Below, one piece after another: positions 2,478 through 55,707 of a stretch of 64,000 bases of DNA. A model generated the notes under the pieces. That model searched no databases. It saw nothing but the letters and a program-made list of their open reading frames with translations, and was not told where the DNA came from. This DNA is from Verrucomicrobiota bacterium. GTDB taxonomy: Bacteria; Verrucomicrobiota; Verrucomicrobiia; Limisphaerales; JAFGQR01. A program made the position numbers and the translations under genes. Location of the stretch: the NCBI GenBank assembly GCA_016935555.1, contig JAFGQR010000050.1:1-64000 (forward strand). Direction: 5' to 3'. Numbering within the stretch: position 1 is the stretch's first letter; each line of letters starts with the position of its first letter.

Positions 2478-2640
2478 GGTAGGGACGCGTTCCACCGCGT
2501 CCCTGACTTTTCCTGCAGGCATCGCCAGCCCAGGAGCGTGATCGCGGGCGGCCCGGAGGCGTCGGAGGTTTCCTTCGGATGGTCTCGAATCCGCGATTGC
2601 CCTGAGGATAAAATGGGACGCGCTGGAACGCGTCCCTACC
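2478..2640. repeat. Inverted pair of a dispersed palindromic element (copies A and B)
   Basis: Copy A (2478-2507) and copy B (2615-2640) are the same sequence in opposite orientation, 107 bp apart. Each copy is itself a hairpin: AGGGACGCG and CGCGTCCCT arms (one base shorter in B) around a 6-nt loop. Copy A is identical over 30 bp, as reverse complement, to copy D at 54191-54220. The pair fills the gap between the oxidoreductase and the minus-strand hypothetical gene, as a REP/BIME-type or MITE-like element would. Confidence 0.8.
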
Positions 2641-12062: not shown

Positions 12063-15000
12063 ATGAAACCGACGAATCAAACATGGAGTATTTGCTGGGT
12101 TGTGGCGTGGCTGAGCGCGGCGGCCCTTGCCTGGGGCCAGGACAGGGCAGATGGGGCGACGACGGACGAGGGCAGCCTGCCCGAGAGCGCCCACGCGGCT
12201 GCCCTGGGCTCCGGACATGGGCAGGACAAGGTGCCGCCCGTGCTGGAGTGCGCGGCCGACCGGACGGTGGAATGCGGTGAGGCTTGGTCGTTCGATGCGC
12301 CGACGGCCACCGACAACAGTGGCGATGAGAACGTCGTCGTGACCATTCTCAACACCGTGACCAACGCCGGGTGCGGGGACAGCCTGGTGGCCCAGCGCAC
12401 CTGGCAGGCCGAGGACCGTGCCGGCAACGTCTCCGACCCTTGCACTCAAACGGTGACTGTCAGCGACACCACACCCCCCGTGCTGACGTGCGCCCCGGCC
12501 AAGACCGTCGAGTGCGGCCAGCCATGGGCATTCGATGTGCCGGTGGCGAGCGACGCGTGCGTGTTCAATTCCATGATTTACAACAACGCGACCAACGACC
12601 TGAACAACCGCTTCGAACCGGGCCCGACGGAGGTCGGCGACGAAATCGTCCTCGAGGGCACCGCGCGGCACCTCACCCAGTTCGTCTTCGAATACTGGGG
12701 CGTCAACAACACCCAGCCGGAATTCGCCGGCGCCGTCCAGGCCCGCGTCCGGTTCTATGCCAACGACGGCCCCCCGTTCAACGGGTATCCGACCCCGGGC
12801 ACGCTGCTCTACGACAGCGGCGCCTTTGCGGTCAGCGCCACGGCGCGCGCGACGCTGATCATTGAGGATTTCGTGTTGGAGGCGGCGGTGCCGCTGACCG
12901 GGCCGGTGCCGGACACGTTCACGTGGACGGTGCAATTTGGCGGGCTGGAGGCCGGCGACGCGGCGGGGCTGGATCTTTTCTCGCCGCCGGTGGTGGGGAC
13001 GAGCTATCCGGACTACTGGGAGCGCGCGGGCGAGGACTGGATGCTGAAGACCAACGCGGCGGTGACGGTGAATTTTGCGGCGCTGGCGCTGGCGTCCGAG
13101 GAACCGCTGCTTCTCACGGTTCTCAACACGGTCACCAACGCCGCCTGCGGCGCGACCTTTGAGGCCATTCGCACATGGGAGGCCACCGATCCCTGCGGCC
13201 GCACCGCCACCTGCAGCCAGACCGTCACGGTCGTCGACACCACGCCGCCAACCCTCGCCTGCGCCCCGGACAAAACCGTCGAGTGCGGCCAGCCGTGGGC
13301 CTTTGATGTGCCGGTGGCGGGCGACGCGTGCGTGTTCAATTCCCTGATCTACGACAACGCGACCAACGATCTGAGCTACTGCTTCAATCCCGGCACGACG
13401 GAAGTCGGCGACGAAATCGTCCTCGAGGGCGCCGCGCGGCATCTCACCCAGTTCGTGTTCGAATATTGGGGCGTCAACACCACCCAGCCCGAATTCGCCG
13501 GCGCCGTCCAGGCCCGCGTCCGGTTCTATGCCAACGACGGCCCCCCGTTCAACGGGTACCCGACCCCGGGCACGGTGCTCTACGACAGCGGCGCCTTCGG
13601 CCTCGGCGCCACGCCGCGCGCGACGCTGATCATTGAGGATTTCGTGTTCGAGGCGGCGGTGCCGCTAACCGGGCCGGTGCCGGACGCGTTCACGTGGACG
13701 GTGCAATTCAGCGGGCTGGAGGTCGGCGACGCGGCCGGGCTGGATATCTATTCGCCGCCGGTGGTGGGGGGGAGTTATCCCGATTACTGGGAGCGCGCCG
13801 GCGGCGGCTGGCTGCTGAAGACCAATGCGGCGGCGGCGGTGGATTTCGCCGCGCTGGCGCTGGCGTCCGAGGAACCGCTGCTGCTGAGGGTGGCCAACAC
13901 GGTCACCAACGCCGCCTGCGGCGCCACCCTCGAAGCCACCCGCACGTGGGAGGTCACCGATCCCTGCAACCACACCGCCACCTGCAGCCAGACCGTCACG
14001 GTGGTGGACACCACACCCCCCGCGCTGGTCTGCGCCCTGGACAAGACCGTCGAGTGCGGTCAGCCGTGGGCGTTCGACGCGCCGGCGGCCAGCGACGCGT
14101 GCGGGCCCGAGGTGCTGGTCGGCGTGCTGGACATCGTGACCAACGCCTCACCCGCCGGCACGCTGGTGGCAGCGTGCACCTGGGTGGCGACCGATTCGTG
14201 CGGCCTGACGGCGACCTGCAGCCAGGAGGTCACAGTCAGCGACACCACCCCTCCGACCCTGGTCTGCCCTGCCAACCTGACGGTAAATTGCGACGTGGCA
14301 CTGCCACCCGCCGATCCCGAAAGCGTCGTCGCGGCCGACAACTGCGTTGTTCCGCCAGTGGTGACGCATGGGGGCGATGTCGAGTCCGGCACCCTGCCGC
14401 GTGTGGTTACGCGCACGTATCGCGCAACCGACGGGAGCGGCAACGCGGCCACGTGCGACCAGACCATCACCTTCCGCGATGTCGCGTCGGCGCCGCCGGC
14501 CATCACCGAGCAGCCCCGCAGCCGCACCAACAACGTCGGCACCCTGGCCACGTTCACCCTGGGCGCCGCCTCCTGCGAGGCGCCGACGTTCCAATGGTAC
14601 TTCAATGACGCGCTTCTTGCCGGCGAGACCGGGGCCACGCTGGCGCTGGACAGCGTCACGCTGGCCCAGGCCGGCGATTATTATGCCGTCGCGCTGAACA
14701 CCGCCGGCGCCTCCACCAGCCAGCTCGCGCGCCTGACGGTCAACCGCCCGCCGGTCGCGGCAGCCGATGCTTTCAGCGCGACGACCGACGCGGCGCTGGT
14801 CATTCCCGGCGCCGCCCTGCTTGCCAACGACACCGATGCCGACGGCGATCTCCTGCGGGTTCTGGCGGTCAGCAGCCCCAGCGACCAGGGCGGCACGGTG
14901 GTCCTCAACGGCACCGACCTCACCTACACGCCCCCACGGCTCTACGCCGGGCCGGACTTTTTCTTCTACACCGTCGCCGACGGCCGCGGCGGATTCGACA

Positions 15001-21001: not shown

Positions 21002-24000
21002 ATGGTGTTGTTTAACCATGGTGTCGCGTCTATGAATAACGTGTTGTGTCCCGCGAAAGCTCGGCGTTCGCCGAAGAAGGCGGCTGCGTGCGTCTCGTGG
21101 CGGCTTTTCCCGGTTTTCCTGGCGGCCTGGGCTCTCCCGGAGCTGCTTCTGGCGGTTCCTCCCTGTTCGCCCGACCTTCAGCCTCCCGCAATCGTCTTTT
21201 GCCCGCCCGATGGGGGGGTCGAATGCGGCACGCCGCTGACCCCTCCGAACACGGGCGGCACGGCGCTGGCGGTGGATGCGTGCGATCCGGCGCCGCTGGT
21301 CACCTACGCCGACCGCGGGCCGCTGACCGTGATGCCGGCGGATCTTGACGGGTGGGTTTTTGCCGTGCAGGGGCTTCCGTTGACGGCCGTGGCGGAAATG
21401 ACCGCGGGGCCGGGCACGCCACCGCTGGGTTCGGGCAGCTTCCATGTCTCCATCGGCGCCAACGGCGAGAACCTCACCGAACTGCGCAACTTCGGCTTCG
21501 ACCAGGTGCCGCTGGCGAAAGTCACCGAACTGTCCTACCGGACCTATCGCACGATGGACGGCGCCGGGCTCAACCGGAGCATTTACCTGATGCTGAATGT
21601 GGACACTGACGGAAACGGGGCCGGCGACGACGTGATTTATTTCGAGCCGCGCTTCCAGAGCGGCAGCAACCCCGCCCTGCCCGACCAGGGGCCGACCGTC
21701 ACGGGCGTCTGGCAGAAGTGGGATGCGCATCATGGCGGCTGGTGGTCCATCAACCATCCCGAGGTCATGACCCCGGGCCCCGGCGTCCAATCCCTGGCCA
21801 CCTACCTCGCCGCCTTCCCGGGCGCGCGCATCGTCAACAGCGTCAGCGGCGGCGGCGTCCGGTTGTCCGCCGGCGGGGGCGCGGGCGCGTGGGATTTCTT
21901 TGACGGCCACGCCGATTACCTGGTGCTGGGCACCAACGGCGTCTCGCAAGCCTACGACTTCGACGTCGCCCCTGCCACCGTTTGCCCGACCGTCATCATC
22001 CGCACCTGGACGGCCGCCGACCAGAGCGGCAACGCTGTGTCATGTTCCCAGAAACTGACCGTCGCCGACACGACGGCTCCCGTGCTGAGCTGCGGCTCGG
22101 ACCGCACGGTGGCATGTCACGAGGCCTGGGATTTTGACGAGCCGACGGCAACCGACGCGTGCGGCGCGGTCACGCTCACCCTCGTGAGCGCCGTCACCAA
22201 CACCACCTGCCCCTTCAGCTTCGTCGCCACCCGCACCTGGCGCGCCATCGACCCGTGCGGCAATGTCGCCGAATGCACCCAGACGGTCAGTTCGGCGGAC
22301 ACGCAGCCCCCGGTGGTGGCGGGTCCGGCGGACGTGACCGTGGAGTGCACCGAGAGCGTCGCGCCGGCCGCCACCGGCACTGCCACGGCCTCCGACAACT
22401 GCGATCCCCAGCCCACCGTCACCTGGAGCGACACCGAGACGCCCGGCGCCTGCCCGCAAGAGCGCGTCATCACGCGGACATGGACCGCCACCGACGCGTG
22501 CGGCAACGCCGCGAGCGTCGACCAAACCATCACCGTGGCCGACCGCACGCCTCCGGTGGTTACTTGCCCGCCGTCCGAGACCGTCGAGTGCGGCACGCCG
22601 TGGAGTTTCGACCTGCCCGCCGGCACGGATGCCTGCGGCCCCGTGACCGTCACCGAGGTGAGCACCGTCACCAACTCGGCCTGCGGCGACACCATGACCG
22701 TGTCCCGGACCTGGCTGGTGGCGGATGCCTGCGGCCTCGGGGTGCCCTGCGTCCAGACCATCACCGTGCAGGACACCCTTGCCCCGATCGTGACGTGCGT
22801 TCCCGACAAGACCGTCGAGTGCGGCCTGCCGTGGGCGTTCGACGTGCCGAGCTACAGCGACGAATGCGTCTTCGAGTCGCTCGTGTTCGACAATTCCGTC
22901 AACGACGCCCAGTGGCGGTTCAGCAGCGGCACCACCGAGGTCGGCGATGAAATCGTGCTCGCCGGCGCCGCGCGTCAGATCACTCGGTTCGCCTTCGAAT
23001 ACTTCGGCGTCAACCGGAACACCCAGGCCGAGGAGTTCGAGGGCAGCGTCACCGCCCGCGTCCGGTTCTATGCCAACGACGGCCCGGGCGAATACCCCTC
23101 CCCCCAGACGGTGCTGTACGACAGCGGCGAGTTCGCGGTGCCGGCCACGGTGCGATCGGTGGTGACCATCGAGGATTTCCAGCTCGAAGCCGTGGTCCCC
23201 CTGGCGGGCAACGTGCCAGACTCGTTCACGTGGACCGTCCAATTCGGCGGGCTCGGCCCGAATGACGACGTCGGCCTGGACATTTACAACCCGATCGTCC
23301 TGGGGCTCAGCTACCCGGATTACTGGGAACGCACCCCGCAGGGCTGGCAATTGAAAGCCCATCCCGACGTCAAGATCGACTTTGCCGCGCGGATCGAGGC
23401 GGCCCGGGAGAACGTGCAGGCCAGGGTGCTCAGCACCGTCACCAACACCCTCGACGGCCAGACCATCGTCGCGACGCGCACCTGGGAGGTCGTGGACCCG
23501 TGCGACAACCGCAGCGAGTGCTCCCAAAATGTCACCGTTCTCGACTCCATACCCCCGGTTGTGACATGCCCCGGCATCATCACCACCAACATCGTCTACG
23601 GCCCCTGCGAACAGGTGGTCGCATTCACCACAACGGCCACCGACGCCGGCATCCCCGTCCCGGTGGTGTGCGTTCCGTCGAGCGGATCCGCGTTTCCGAA
23701 AGGCACCACCACGGTCACCTGCACCGCCACTGACGCCCGCGGCAACCAGGGATCGTGCAGTTTCCCCGTCGTCGTGGTCCCGCCGACCTTCACCCAGACC
23801 GTCAACCGCCTGATTCCCGACGGCGACCCCGGCGGATTGACCAACCGTCTCACGGTGACCACGCCGATCACGTTCCTGACCGACGTCGAGGTCACCCTCA
23901 ACCTCGCCCACAGCTGGAACGGCGACCTCCATGCCTTCCTCGTCCACAACACCGGCCGGGCCGTTCTCCTCAACCGGGTCGGCCGCCGCGCCGGGGACTT

Positions 24001-26038
24001 GCTCGGCTACAGCGACGACGGCTTCAGCGTCACCCTGGACGACGAAGCCGCCGGCGGAGACATCCACGTCTACCGGATGCAGTTGTTCGGCAACCCCACC
24101 ACGCCTCTCGTCGGACCGCTCACCGGCCTCTGGGCGCCCGACGGACGCGACACGCCCCCGGCCCAGGCCCTCGAGTCCGACCCGCGCACCGCCCTGCTGA
24201 GCGCCTTCCGGGGCATGGACCCGAACGGCGTCTGGACGCTGGTGGTGGCGGACCTGCAGCCGGGCGATGCCGGCTTGCTGCAGAGCTGGGGCGTGCAGTT
24301 CTGCGGCGAACTGGGCGTCCCCCCGACCATCACCGCGCCGCCGGTGTCCGTCACCGTCGAATGCGGCACCGACGCGACCTTCAGCGTCACCGCCATCGGC
24401 TCGCCGCCGCTGTCGTATCAGTGGTATTTCGGATCCGCTCCCATCGCCGGAGCGACGGCGGCCACCTTGACCGTGCCGGGTGTGCGCTACGAGGATTTGG
24501 GGGATTACTCGGTGGTGGTCCGCAACGACCACGGCCAGGCCACCAGCACCGCGGCCACCTTGAGCCTCGTGGATACCCGGCTCCCGGAAATCACCTGCCC
24601 GCCCGCGATCACCGTGCCCATCCCGCCCGGCCAATGCTCCGTCGTCGTCCCCAATTACGGGGTTTCCGCCAGCGACGCCTGCGGACCCGTCACGGTTGTG
24701 TGCGTGCCGCCCGCAGGCCAGCCTCTGAGCGCGGGAACCACCCCGGTCCATTGCATTGCCACCGATGCGGCTCTCAACACGGCCGAGTGCAGCTTCGTCG
24801 TCACGGCGCAGGACACGGAAGCCCCCATGCTGGCGGCCTGCCCCGCCGACATCACCGTCGGCACGCAGCAGGGCCAGTGCGCCGCCGCGGTTCCGTTCAC
24901 GCCTCCGGCGCCCACCGACAACTGCCCCGGCACGGCGGTGACCTGCGTCCCGCCCCCGGGAGCAATCTTTCCCGCCGGCGTCACCACCGTGGTCTGCACC
25001 GCTGTCGACGTCGGCGGCAACCAGGCCGCCTGCACCTTCACCGTCACCGTCCTCGACACCGAAGCGCCCGAAGTCTGCATGGACCCGCCCGTCCTCCGCT
25101 CCGCCGGGAGCGAGGACGATTTTGCCGGGCCGGAGCCGGCTTTGGCCAGCGCCACGTTGCAGGAGTACGTTGCCGCGCAGGCGCTGGCGCTGCGCCATTT
25201 CGATTCGCCGGACCCGGATCGCTGGCTGGCGCACTCCTTCGGCGGCCTGCCGGCAAACCTGTCCAGCGCGCGCTTGCGCATTCACGTCCGGGCGCTCGGC
25301 ACCGCGTCGGCCGAAGACACCCTCCAACTCGCCTTCAGCCAGCCGGGCGGATCCCTGCGCGCCGAACAATGGACCCGCCGCTTCGGGTTGTTCGAGGCGG
25401 TGCCGGGACTGCTCCCGGCCACCTGGAGCTCGGGAACCGAAGCCGAATTCGAGCTGGATCTCGCCCGCCTGCCCAACGCCGACGGCACCTTTGCGAATCT
25501 GATGGGTGCGGCGCGGGACGCGGGGGCGTTGGACGTGCTGGCCGGCAACGACACGGATGTCGACTATGTCGTTCTCGAGGTGGAGACCTGCCTTTGCAGC
25601 ACGGACCTCGTCGTGGACAGCGACCCCGCCTTGTGCGGCGCCCGTGTCCCGTTCCCGCCGCCACTCTTCTTTGACAACTGCGATCCGAATCCGGGGGTGG
25701 TCTGCACGCCGCCGTCGGGGAGCGTGTTTGCGCCGGGCGTCACCCGGGTGGATTGCCACGCCATCGACGCCGGCGGCAACATCGGGCGATGCAGTTTCAA
25801 CGTGATCGTGAACGACATCGGCCCCAAGCTGAGCTTCTTCCGGTCGGGGGCGGACCTGGTGCTGAGCTGGCCCGTGGGGTGCGGCGCCTGGCAGCTCGTC
25901 GAAGCCGCCGACCTGGCCAACCCCGTGTCCTGGGTCCCCTCCTCAGCCCCCGTCTCCATCGTGGGATCCGTCTATCGCGCAACCGTTCCCGTCAGCACGC
26001 CGCTCAAGTTCTTTGCCCTCCGCAGCCCTGTGCCTTAG
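21002..26038 (+). CDS. Giant secreted HYR / P-domain / Ig protein
   Basis: A 1678-aa protein with an extended signal peptide (basic region to about residue 33, then LFPVFLAAWALPELLLAV). The order is: a HYR-like domain interrupted by a module of about 220 residues (VMPADLDGWVFAV..YLVLGTNG); four HYR-like domains; a HYR with the same CVFES..YPDYWERTPQGWQLK insert as the 12-kb protein (about 620-790); a HYR; a proprotein-convertase P-domain (TQTVNRLIPDGDPGG..LQSWGVQFCGEL, about 930-1105); an Ig-like domain (about 1107-1190); HYRs, one followed by an insert (FAGPEPALASATLQEYV..); and a C-terminal end domain. It is presumably a surface adhesin. GGGGAGGGGGCG lies just before the ATG at 21002. The gene is divergent from the TPR gene. 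Confidence 0.85.
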   Translation: MVLFNHGVASMNNVLCPAKARRSPKKAAACVSWRLFPVFLAAWALPELLLAVPPCSPDLQPPAIVFCPPDGGVECGTPLTPPNTGGTALAVDACDPAPLVTYADRGPLTVMPADLDGWVFAVQGLPLTAVAEMTAGPGTPPLGSGSFHVSIGANGENLTELRNFGFDQVPLAKVTELSYRTYRTMDGAGLNRSIYLMLNVDTDGNGAGDDVIYFEPRFQSGSNPALPDQGPTVTGVWQKWDAHHGGWWSINHPEVMTPGPGVQSLATYLAAFPGARIVNSVSGGGVRLSAGGGAGAWDFFDGHADYLVLGTNGVSQAYDFDVAPATVCPTVIIRTWTAADQSGNAVSCSQKLTVADTTAPVLSCGSDRTVACHEAWDFDEPTATDACGAVTLTLVSAVTNTTCPFSFVATRTWRAIDPCGNVAECTQTVSSADTQPPVVAGPADVTVECTESVAPAATGTATASDNCDPQPTVTWSDTETPGACPQERVITRTWTATDACGNAASVDQTITVADRTPPVVTCPPSETVECGTPWSFDLPAGTDACGPVTVTEVSTVTNSACGDTMTVSRTWLVADACGLGVPCVQTITVQDTLAPIVTCVPDKTVECGLPWAFDVPSYSDECVFESLVFDNSVNDAQWRFSSGTTEVGDEIVLAGAARQITRFAFEYFGVNRNTQAEEFEGSVTARVRFYANDGPGEYPSPQTVLYDSGEFAVPATVRSVVTIEDFQLEAVVPLAGNVPDSFTWTVQFGGLGPNDDVGLDIYNPIVLGLSYPDYWERTPQGWQLKAHPDVKIDFAARIEAARENVQARVLSTVTNTLDGQTIVATRTWEVVDPCDNRSECSQNVTVLDSIPPVVTCPGIITTNIVYGPCEQVVAFTTTATDAGIPVPVVCVPSSGSAFPKGTTTVTCTATDARGNQGSCSFPVVVVPPTFTQTVNRLIPDGDPGGLTNRLTVTTPITFLTDVEVTLNLAHSWNGDLHAFLVHNTGRAVLLNRVGRRAGDLLGYSDDGFSVTLDDEAAGGDIHVYRMQLFGNPTTPLVGPLTGLWAPDGRDTPPAQALESDPRTALLSAFRGMDPNGVWTLVVADLQPGDAGLLQSWGVQFCGELGVPPTITAPPVSVTVECGTDATFSVTAIGSPPLSYQWYFGSAPIAGATAATLTVPGVRYEDLGDYSVVVRNDHGQATSTAATLSLVDTRLPEITCPPAITVPIPPGQCSVVVPNYGVSASDACGPVTVVCVPPAGQPLSAGTTPVHCIATDAALNTAECSFVVTAQDTEAPMLAACPADITVGTQQGQCAAAVPFTPPAPTDNCPGTAVTCVPPPGAIFPAGVTTVVCTAVDVGGNQAACTFTVTVLDTEAPEVCMDPPVLRSAGSEDDFAGPEPALASATLQEYVAAQALALRHFDSPDPDRWLAHSFGGLPANLSSARLRIHVRALGTASAEDTLQLAFSQPGGSLRAEQWTRRFGLFEAVPGLLPATWSSGTEAEFELDLARLPNADGTFANLMGAARDAGALDVLAGNDTDVDYVVLEVETCLCSTDLVVDSDPALCGARVPFPPPLFFDNCDPNPGVVCTPPSGSVFAPGVTRVDCHAIDAGGNIGRCSFNVIVNDIGPKLSFFRSGADLVLSWPVGCGAWQLVEAADLANPVSWVPSSAPVSIVGSVYRATVPVSTPLKFFALRSPVP

Positions 26039-51072: not shown

Positions 51073-51329
51073 TGCCGTTTTCTGTGTGCGGCTGTTTGCG
51101 GGCGGCATGGAGTGAGCCCTGCGCAAGGGAGCGTCGCGCCAGGATGAACGGGTCTTGGGCTCGCATGGCAGTGGGTGCTGACCCACCAGCCGGGAGGACC
51201 ACCCCCGTGGCCTTCCGCGGCCGCCCCCCTTCACCCGGCACGACAATGTCCAGTTCCTGGGAAGGGAACACCTCCAACATTCGGACGTGAATCGAGGCCA
51301 TGAAGCGCCGCCGATATGGCGCAATTGAT

Positions 51330-51361
51330 AATTGAAAATTAGGAATTGAGAATTTTCAATT
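51330..51361. repeat. AT-rich hairpin downstream of the porin gene
   Basis: AATTGAAAATT (51330-51340) and AATTTTCAATT (51351-51361) are perfectly complementary around 10 nt. The sequence resembles the aattgagaatt repeat at 39586-39619 and is markedly AT-rich for this genome. Confidence 0.55.
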
Positions 51362-51444
51362 GGGTCTTTCGGCAGCCCATGCGCGGTTCATGGGAAGGCG
51401 CGGACCCGCCTTCATGGCAGGCGCCACTGCGGTGTGGCAAGCCC

Positions 51445-51576
51445 GGTAGGGCGAGACTCCGTCGAGCCCTGGCTTCCCCTCGTGGCATGCCGGCTCGCCA
51501 CGGCGCCGCACCGAGGCGGCCAACGATGGGCGGTGCGGACGCGGGGGAGTTTGGGCTCGACGGAGTGTCGCCCTGC
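51445..51576. repeat. Inverted pair of a 25-bp element
   Basis: GGTAGGGCGAGACTCCGTCG.. at 51445-51470 recurs in inverted orientation at 51552-51576 with a few mismatches, 81 bp apart. Layout and the GGTAGGG start resemble the element pairs at 2478-2640 and 54053-54220 although the core differs. A 13-bp direct repeat lies outside both ends. Confidence 0.6.
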
Positions 51577-51622
51577 CATCGGCGTGTGGAAGCGCGGTTC
51601 ATGGCAGGAATGAAGTTCTTTT

Positions 51623-53976: not shown

Positions 53977-54052
53977 GCTCGCGTTCACGGCGCCGATGCT
54001 GAAACGAAGCCAGCGCGCCGTCAATGGGGCGCCGTCCCCGCGCGACGCGCCC

Positions 54053-54220
54053 GGTAGGGACGCGTTCCACCGCGTCCCTCTTGTCTCTTTGGCGGCGGCG
54101 AGCGTCGGGAACTGACTCGGAGGGACACCATCAGGCGGCTGGGCCCCCCGGGGTCCAGCCGCCTGGGCCAACGCACGCCTCCAAGGAGACGTCAGGGACG
54201 CGGTGGAACGCGTCCCTACC
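54053..54220. repeat. Inverted pair of the dispersed palindromic element (copies C and D) with internal hairpin
   Basis: Copy C (54053-54080) and copy D (54191-54220) are in opposite orientation; D is the 30-bp perfect reverse complement of copy A at 2478-2507. Between them is an independent perfect 11-bp hairpin, CAGGCGGCTGG (54132-54142) with CCAGCCGCCTG (54155-54165). The pair fills most of the 330-bp gap between thpR and the PurF-like gene. No ORF inside it is credible. Confidence 0.8.
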
Positions 54221-54306
54221 TCCCGGCCTCGCTTCGCGCTTGAGTTGGCGGGGGACAACCGCTAGGCTGTGTGCGTTTCAATGGCGGCAGAAACCGAAAC
54301 GGAGTT

Positions 54307-55707
54307 ATGGGCGGCTATTTTGGTGTGGTTTCAAGAGACGACTGCGTGGCGGACCTGTTTTACGGGACCGACTACCACTCCCATCTCGGGACGCATCGCG
54401 GCGGCCTGGCGGTGCACAACGGCGCGGGCTGCGAGCGTTACATTCACGACATCACCAACGCGCAGTTCCGCACGAAGTTCGAGCAGGACGTTCTGAAGCT
54501 CAAGGGCCGGATGGGCATCGGCGTGATCAGCGACACGGACGACCAGCCGCTGACCATCGGATCGCACCTGGGCCATTATGCGATCGTCACCGTCGGGCGC
54601 ATTGGGAACATGAGCGAGCTGGTCAGGCAGGCCTACGGCTTGCGCTCGGCGCATTTCTCGGAAATGAGCGGCGGCGGGATCAACCCCACCGAGTTGGTGG
54701 CGCTCTTCATCAACCAGGGGGCCACCTTCGCCGAGGGGATCGAGATCGCGCAGAACGCCATCTCCGGATCCTGCTCCCTGCTGCTGCTGTCCGACAAGGG
54801 CGTCTACGCCGCCCGCGACAAGCTCGGCCGCACCCCGATTGTTCTCGGCCGGAAAGACGGCGCCTACGCGGCGACGATGGAGAGCGCCGCGTTTCCGAAC
54901 CTCGGGTATGAGACGCTGCGCGAGCTGGGCCCGGGCGAGGTGGTGCGGCTGACGCCCGAAGGGGTGGAAACGCTGGCATTGCCGCAGTCGCGCTGCCAGA
55001 TGTGCGCGTTTTTCTGGGTGTATTACGGCTACCCGGCTTCCACCTACGAGGGCGTTAACACCGAGGAAAGCCGCTACCGCAGCGGTGCCGCCCTGGCCCG
55101 GCGGGACACCACGCCCGTGGATGTGGTCGCCGGCATTCCCGATTCGGGCACCGGCCACGCGATGGGCTACGCGAGGCAGAGAGGAGTTCCCTTCGAGCGG
55201 CCTTTCGTGAAATACACGCCCACCTGGTCGCGCAGTTTCATGCCCCAGGACCAGCCCACCCGCGACCTGATCGCCCGCATGAAAATCATCCCCATCAAGG
55301 AACTCATCCAGGGCCGCCGCCTCCTGTTCTGCGAGGACTCCATCGTCCGCGGCACCCAGCTCCGCGACACGGTCCGCCGGCTGTTCGATTACGGCGCAAA
55401 GGAGGTCCACATGCGGCCGGCCTGCCCGCCGCTCATCCATGGCTGCAAGTTCCTCAACTTCTCGCGCTCGAAATCCGAGCTCGACCTCGCCGGGCGGCGG
55501 GCGATCAGGGAAATGGAAGGCCAGGACGGCCCGCCGCCGCCGGAATACGCGGAGCCGGGCTCGGAGCAGCACCGGGCCATGGTGGAGCGGATTCGGCACC
55601 GGCTGGGCCTGACGACGCTGTTGTATCAGCGGCTCGACGACCTGGTCCGGGCGATCGGCCTGCCCAAGGAACGGCTCTGCACCTACTGCTGGGACGGCCA
55701 AGAATAA
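54307..55707 (+). CDS. PurF-like protein lacking the catalytic N-terminal cysteine
   Basis: A 466-aa protein with the two-domain plan of amidophosphoribosyltransferase: an Ntn-type glutaminase-like domain (GTDYHSHLGTHRGGLAVHNG, FSEMSGGGINPTELVALFINQG) and a phosphoribosyltransferase domain with IPDSGTGHAMGYARQRG and the PRPP-loop LLFCEDSIVRGTQL. Canonical PurF has Cys as residue 1 after processing; here the mature start is MGGYFGVVSRDDC, Gly-Gly where the Cys belongs. A known PurF paralogue beginning MGGFFG in Bacteroidetes and others has the same feature. It may use free ammonia or bind an unknown ligand. The start at 54307 follows GGAG. hisF begins 3 bp after the stop. Confidence 0.85.
   Translation: MGGYFGVVSRDDCVADLFYGTDYHSHLGTHRGGLAVHNGAGCERYIHDITNAQFRTKFEQDVLKLKGRMGIGVISDTDDQPLTIGSHLGHYAIVTVGRIGNMSELVRQAYGLRSAHFSEMSGGGINPTELVALFINQGATFAEGIEIAQNAISGSCSLLLLSDKGVYAARDKLGRTPIVLGRKDGAYAATMESAAFPNLGYETLRELGPGEVVRLTPEGVETLALPQSRCQMCAFFWVYYGYPASTYEGVNTEESRYRSGAALARRDTTPVDVVAGIPDSGTGHAMGYARQRGVPFERPFVKYTPTWSRSFMPQDQPTRDLIARMKIIPIKELIQGRRLLFCEDSIVRGTQLRDTVRRLFDYGAKEVHMRPACPPLIHGCKFLNFSRSKSELDLAGRRAIREMEGQDGPPPPEYAEPGSEQHRAMVERIRHRLGLTTLLYQRLDDLVRAIGLPKERLCTYCWDGQE

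Follow-up and report, generated by a model that had tools for sequence, protein, structure and literature searches.

GTAG repeats, which are defined by a GTAG tag before a perfect palindrome, and their REPtrons have been described from genomes including that of Opitutus terrae of the Verrucomicrobia, where a short palindrome has the tag at its foot (PMC3733652). In these REPtrons, RAYT genes are flanked by the repeats, some of which overlap the 3′ end of the gene, and TIRtrons (GGGGWSAS) are found in the same genomes. REPINs of Pseudomonas fluorescens SBW25 are dispersed, intergenic doublets of inverted REPs around a spacer, which form a long hairpin as single-stranded DNA and are linked to a RAYT by matching REPs (Bertels and Rainey 2011, PMC3116915). 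Group 3 TnpAREP/REP systems, for example those of Stenotrophomonas and Marinomonas, have a short perfect palindrome after GTAG, and the loop sequence is a main determinant of recognition (PMC8266576).

These features have counterparts in the repeats analyzed here, which we call family A (in the two window pairs as regards intergenic location, and in relatives as regards linkage to a RAYT), and their fixed TTCCAC loop and free stem match the group 3 mode of recognition. Compared with the SBW25 REPINs, family A has a longer spacer (∼110 bp; in SBW25 the first residues of the GI 16-mers lie 71 bp apart), a conserved directional interior, a different tag context and loop, and a cognate RAYT that is absent from its own draft assembly. 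In contrast to the GTAG repeats of PMC3733652, it also shows GGAG and GTAA tags; neither its REP sequence nor its RAYT clade was found named in the main text of that study. The comparison with group 3 is based on REP features, and the loop of A is 6 nt long as opposed to 3–4 nt in that group. On our best reading, this kind of REPIN is already known and what is new is this family of GTAG-class REPINs.

In the window, that is, the whole stretch of 64,000 nucleotides that was analyzed, we found four A hairpins arranged as two inverted pairs (Table 1), as the initial annotation had claimed. Only 0.01 were expected by chance, and no shuffled sequence reached four. The hairpin, GGTAGGGACGCG-TTCCAC-CGCGTCCC, consists of a GTAG tag, an 8-bp stem and a 6-nt loop, and tag and palindrome read GGTAG-GGACGCG-TTCCAC-CGCGTCC in the window copies and in the genome family; the right-hand hairpin of copy 1 carries a single change, located in the loop. 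The reported 30-bp identity was exact, positions 2478–2507 being the reverse complement of 54191–54220. Examination of the flanking genes placed both pairs between genes, again in agreement with the earlier claim: copy 1 is flanked by a GFO/IDH/MocA oxidoreductase gene, which ends at 2409, and by a convergent ORF, which ends at 2645 and had no Pfam match, and copy 2 is bordered by a LigT/2′-5′ RNA ligase-like gene on the minus strand with its start near 53978 and by a divergent glutamine-amidotransferase-domain gene with its start near 54271–54308. An Rfam search of the window returned zero matches.

Table 1. Repeat features of the window
Feature	Position	Strand	Remarks
REPIN copy 1, complete (163 bp)	2478–2640		two inverted REPs and spacer; aligned with seven other full copies; DNA fold z = −7.4
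REP hairpin, GTAG tag, TTCCAC loop	2478–2503	+	also terminator-like on + strand (stem 2480–2505, then ACTTTT)
Inverted REP hairpin, loop TTCCAG	2615–2640	−	also terminator-like on − strand
REPIN copy 2, complete (168 bp)	54053–54220		interior opposite in orientation to copy 1; DNA fold z = −10.8
REP hairpin, GTAG tag, TTCCAC loop	54053–54078	+
Inverted REP hairpin, GTAG tag, TTCCAC loop	54195–54220	−
REPIN of sister family B (GGTAGGGCGAGACTCCGTCGAGCCC ends), related to and distinct from A	51445–51577		102 copies genome-wide at ≤3 mismatches

Pattern searches of the window's own genome (a draft of 5.29 Mb in 200 contigs, 93.6% complete), on which all genome counts of the family rest, yielded 37 copies of the hairpin at ≤3 mismatches and none of a reversed control pattern. 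As far as copy number goes, the family is thus not confined to the four window copies, a situation that the initial annotation, in combination with the lack of an associated transposase, had named as speaking against a mobile repeat. Eight of the 37 copies are located ∼100 bp or less from where a contig stops, which means that the assembly is broken by the element, with contigs often ending within it, and that 37 is a minimum; by the same token, a RAYT located between copies could drop out in assembly. The resolvable copies were for the most part arranged in inverted pairs: nine pairs faced inward, eight with a spacing of 133–142 and one of 41. Eight complete doublets aligned end to end (82% mean column identity) with nearly invariant REP ends and a recognizable consensus in the interior, which matched far better in one orientation (mean score 38.3) than when reversed (6.5) or shuffled (−2.5). 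The copy at 2478 has the most diverged interior, with 55–59% identity to the others. Since the pairs enclose a directional, related interior, the dispersed unit is the 163–172-bp doublet and not the single hairpin; the initial annotation was right about the 26–30-bp hairpins and set the unit too narrow, each window pair being one element.

As in the definition of GTAG-class REPs, the tag lies directly 5′ of a short palindrome that is present in many dispersed copies, and, as in REPINs, the hairpins form inverted doublets at a preferred spacing; both window doublets fold into long hairpins as single-stranded DNA (z-scores in Table 1). The interior is non-coding in length and does not hold a tnpA of its own between the ends, as an IS200/IS605 element would.

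To place the family among its relatives, we used a 25-base REP core, which at ≤1 mismatch was present in 28 of 320 genomes of the same order, belonging to many families and with up to 83 copies. Genomes sharing the genus or family of the window's genome did not surface in the searches. Among RAYT loci fetched from copy-rich genomes, four genes were directly flanked by an A-type REP (L308, L303, L290 and L274, the last with an internal stop); the relatives with a REP-flanked RAYT include G209, G028, G051 and G089. In L308, L290 and L274, the tag of the neighboring REP supplies the TAG or TAA with which the RAYT reading frame ends. The four proteins form one subfamily, and their profile retrieved further members by protein search alone. 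Three of the closest new RAYTs (L337, L339 and L361) have TTCCAC- or TTTCAC-loop REPs alongside; beside another of them, L340, there was no recognized REP of either type. One exception was L312, a RAYT of another subfamily ∼60–150 bp from an A-type REP. Two further genes were not counted as linked: the L220 RAYT, which is ∼1 kb from a copy, and a RAYT of G051 (L207:3509–4204), whose own REP differs (AGCAGGCTTTCCAGCCTGCT) and of which only a duplicated gene fragment touches an A-like doublet. A broad GTDB pattern scan also returned GTAGGGACGCG palindromes from Bacteroidota, Chloroflexota and others, which were set aside as their loops differ.

The loop type of the REPs follows the RAYT tree. 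On the maximum-likelihood tree it changes 4 times, with a possible minimum of 3 and a mean of 12.6 after shuffling (0 of 200 shuffles were as low). The five RAYTs with GTAG- or GTAA-tagged TTCCAC REPs, which come from five different families, group together in one clade (98/92 support), and the two RAYTs with GGAG-tagged REPs are placed in another clade. More distant RAYTs have CTGC-, GTGTC- or CTCC-loop REPs, CTCC being the type of window family B. TTCCAC or TTTCAC loops accompany 7 of the 31 RAYTs of the wider clade and 0 of ∼34 other RAYTs detected by the profile (Fisher p about 0.005, computed with slightly lower numbers); four of the seven helped to define the clade, and the independent test consists of L337, L339 and L361, which were found later.

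The stems also covary. In 35 distinct hairpins, picked by tag and loop only, an average of 4.46 of the 5 inner stem pairs was kept, compared with 3.21 when the 3′ arms were shuffled (shuffle maximum 3.74). Stem variants changed on both sides (GACGCG/CGCGTC, GACGGA/TCCGTC, GACGAC/GTCGTC, GACAGG/CCTGTC and others), and these compensating changes occurred while the TTCCAC loop stayed constant. A fixed loop on a free stem fits RAYTs that read the loop, as group 3 RAYTs do (PMC8266576).

The window's own assembly contains three Y1 transposases (contigs C99, C159 and C183) and, in a search for them, no RAYT of the TTCCAC clade (best E 0.21), nor did we find a RAYT flanked by the same REP in this draft. 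The initial annotation had pointed to a transposase gene with the same hairpin beside it and to mobilization in trans: the first is present in relatives of the same order and was not found in this assembly, and the second is supported for the REP/REPIN family, through the RAYTs of relatives, rather than for this strain itself. The C99 transposase was rejected as a partner of A, its flanking repeats being a different tagged palindrome, GTAGCCGTGGGTTTAAACCCACGG. It is an IS200-like protein of 150 aa (L031, C99:22306–22650) with at least four GTAGCCGTGGGTTTAAACCCACGG copies around it, a third tagged palindrome family of this genome. The C183 and C159 transposases were rejected for their terminal repeats, which contain GGGGTC and are close to or match the TIRtron type of PMC3733652. 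The cognate RAYT of the family has either been lost, leaving an orphan family, or been missed at a break in the draft assembly.

That the TIRtron-type transposase on C159 drives family A in this genome is very unlikely. The gene (L033, 390 aa and RAYT-like, C159:66857–67222) adjoins a decayed half of the element, of which a 20-bp core (GGACGCGCTGGAACGCGTCC) and a portion of the interior lie ∼30–130 bp past the right terminal repeat of the gene, but its own terminal repeats, GGGGTCAGGTCTCAACATTCAACA, match the GGGGWSAS type (PMC3733652). The adjacent REP lacks the tag, and the arrangement is best read as a TIRtron inserted next to an old A copy, which is the simpler explanation.

Family A very probably consists of GTAG-class REPINs, non-autonomous and spread in trans by the TTCCAC clade of RAYTs. 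We infer that a RAYT encoded elsewhere (an HUH-type Y1 transposase related to IS200/IS605) would act on the REPIN by recognizing the hairpin in single-stranded DNA through the GTAG tag and TTCCAC loop, and would cut beside the hairpin, next to the tag; the doublet might then be moved or copied as a single-stranded unit. Such a model of movement was proposed for REPINs (PMC3116915), and cleavage by a RAYT has been shown in vitro (PMC8266576). A slightly smaller chance still than for the C159 transposase falls to a MITE that depends on a classical DDE transposase, in which the hairpins would be terminal inverted repeats and movement would be by cut-and-paste with target-site duplications. The inverted ends, constant length and intergenic sites would suit such an element; however, both ends are GTAG-tagged hairpins in their own right, their loop is conserved, RAYT genes of relatives are bordered by these same hairpins, and inspection by eye saw no target-site duplication beside the doublets. 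Least probable of all is a reading in which the hairpins persist chiefly for the host, as transcription terminators or mRNA stabilizers, and not as mobile DNA: copy 1 has convergent genes on its two sides and two terminator-like sites compared with 0.1 in shuffled sequences, T runs following both hairpins, but termination leaves the conserved directional interior, the fixed spacing, the divergent-gene site of copy 2 and the RAYT linkage unexplained. A function for the host could accompany mobility, and the hairpins of copy 1 may, as a secondary use, serve as transcription terminators for the two convergent genes.

As GTAG-class REPINs, the family extends the REPIN/RAYT systems in Verrucomicrobiota, and the clear correspondence of REP loop to RAYT clade over many families offers a natural data set for studying hairpin recognition by RAYTs. 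It also carries a warning, since A-type repeats break draft assemblies and may conceal the cognate RAYT.

The relative G051, with 230 copies of a broader REP pattern at ≤1 mismatch, contains REPINs of this family in two types (loci L365–L384): one of 83 bp with unlike ends and one of 161–163 bp with like ends. All 20 listed pairs that were 54–60 apart join a GC-stem end (mostly GTAA) to a GGA-stem end (mostly GTAG), and the ends were alike in 10 of 10 pairs 128–138 apart. Outside its REPs, the long type has another inverted repeat, which resembles TGTTTAGCGTG. Mixed pairs of REPs have a precedent in the BIMEs of E. coli. Should cutting be guided by the tag, as it is for IS200/IS605 and for one group 3 RAYT, the short type might be a REPIN whose left and right ends are distinct, a reading that we regard as rather doubtful; if true, the mixed ends of G051 would show how REPINs and elements of the IS200 type merge gradually.

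Sister family B has its own links to RAYTs: in relatives, B-like REPs flank the RAYTs L342, L346 and L351, which form a sister clade on the RAYT tree. A RAYT flanked by B-like REPs was not present in the window's own assembly. A further dispersed repeat occupies 51250–51397 and ends in GGTTCATGGGAAG at 51385–51397, a motif with 32 occurrences genome-wide (control 0). In several places two copies of GGTTCATGGGAAG in direct orientation, spaced 133 bp, enclose an AT-rich module (AATTGAAAATT...), the motif often stands at a fixed 58–60 bp before a B REPIN, and in G051 it appears as inverted halves on either side of mixed REPINs; perhaps it is a target or a mosaic module. Elsewhere in the window, the long ORFs at 12352–14254 and 21199–25068 contain internal repeats spaced 771 bp (77–85% alike), which look like domains repeated in tandem within large proteins.
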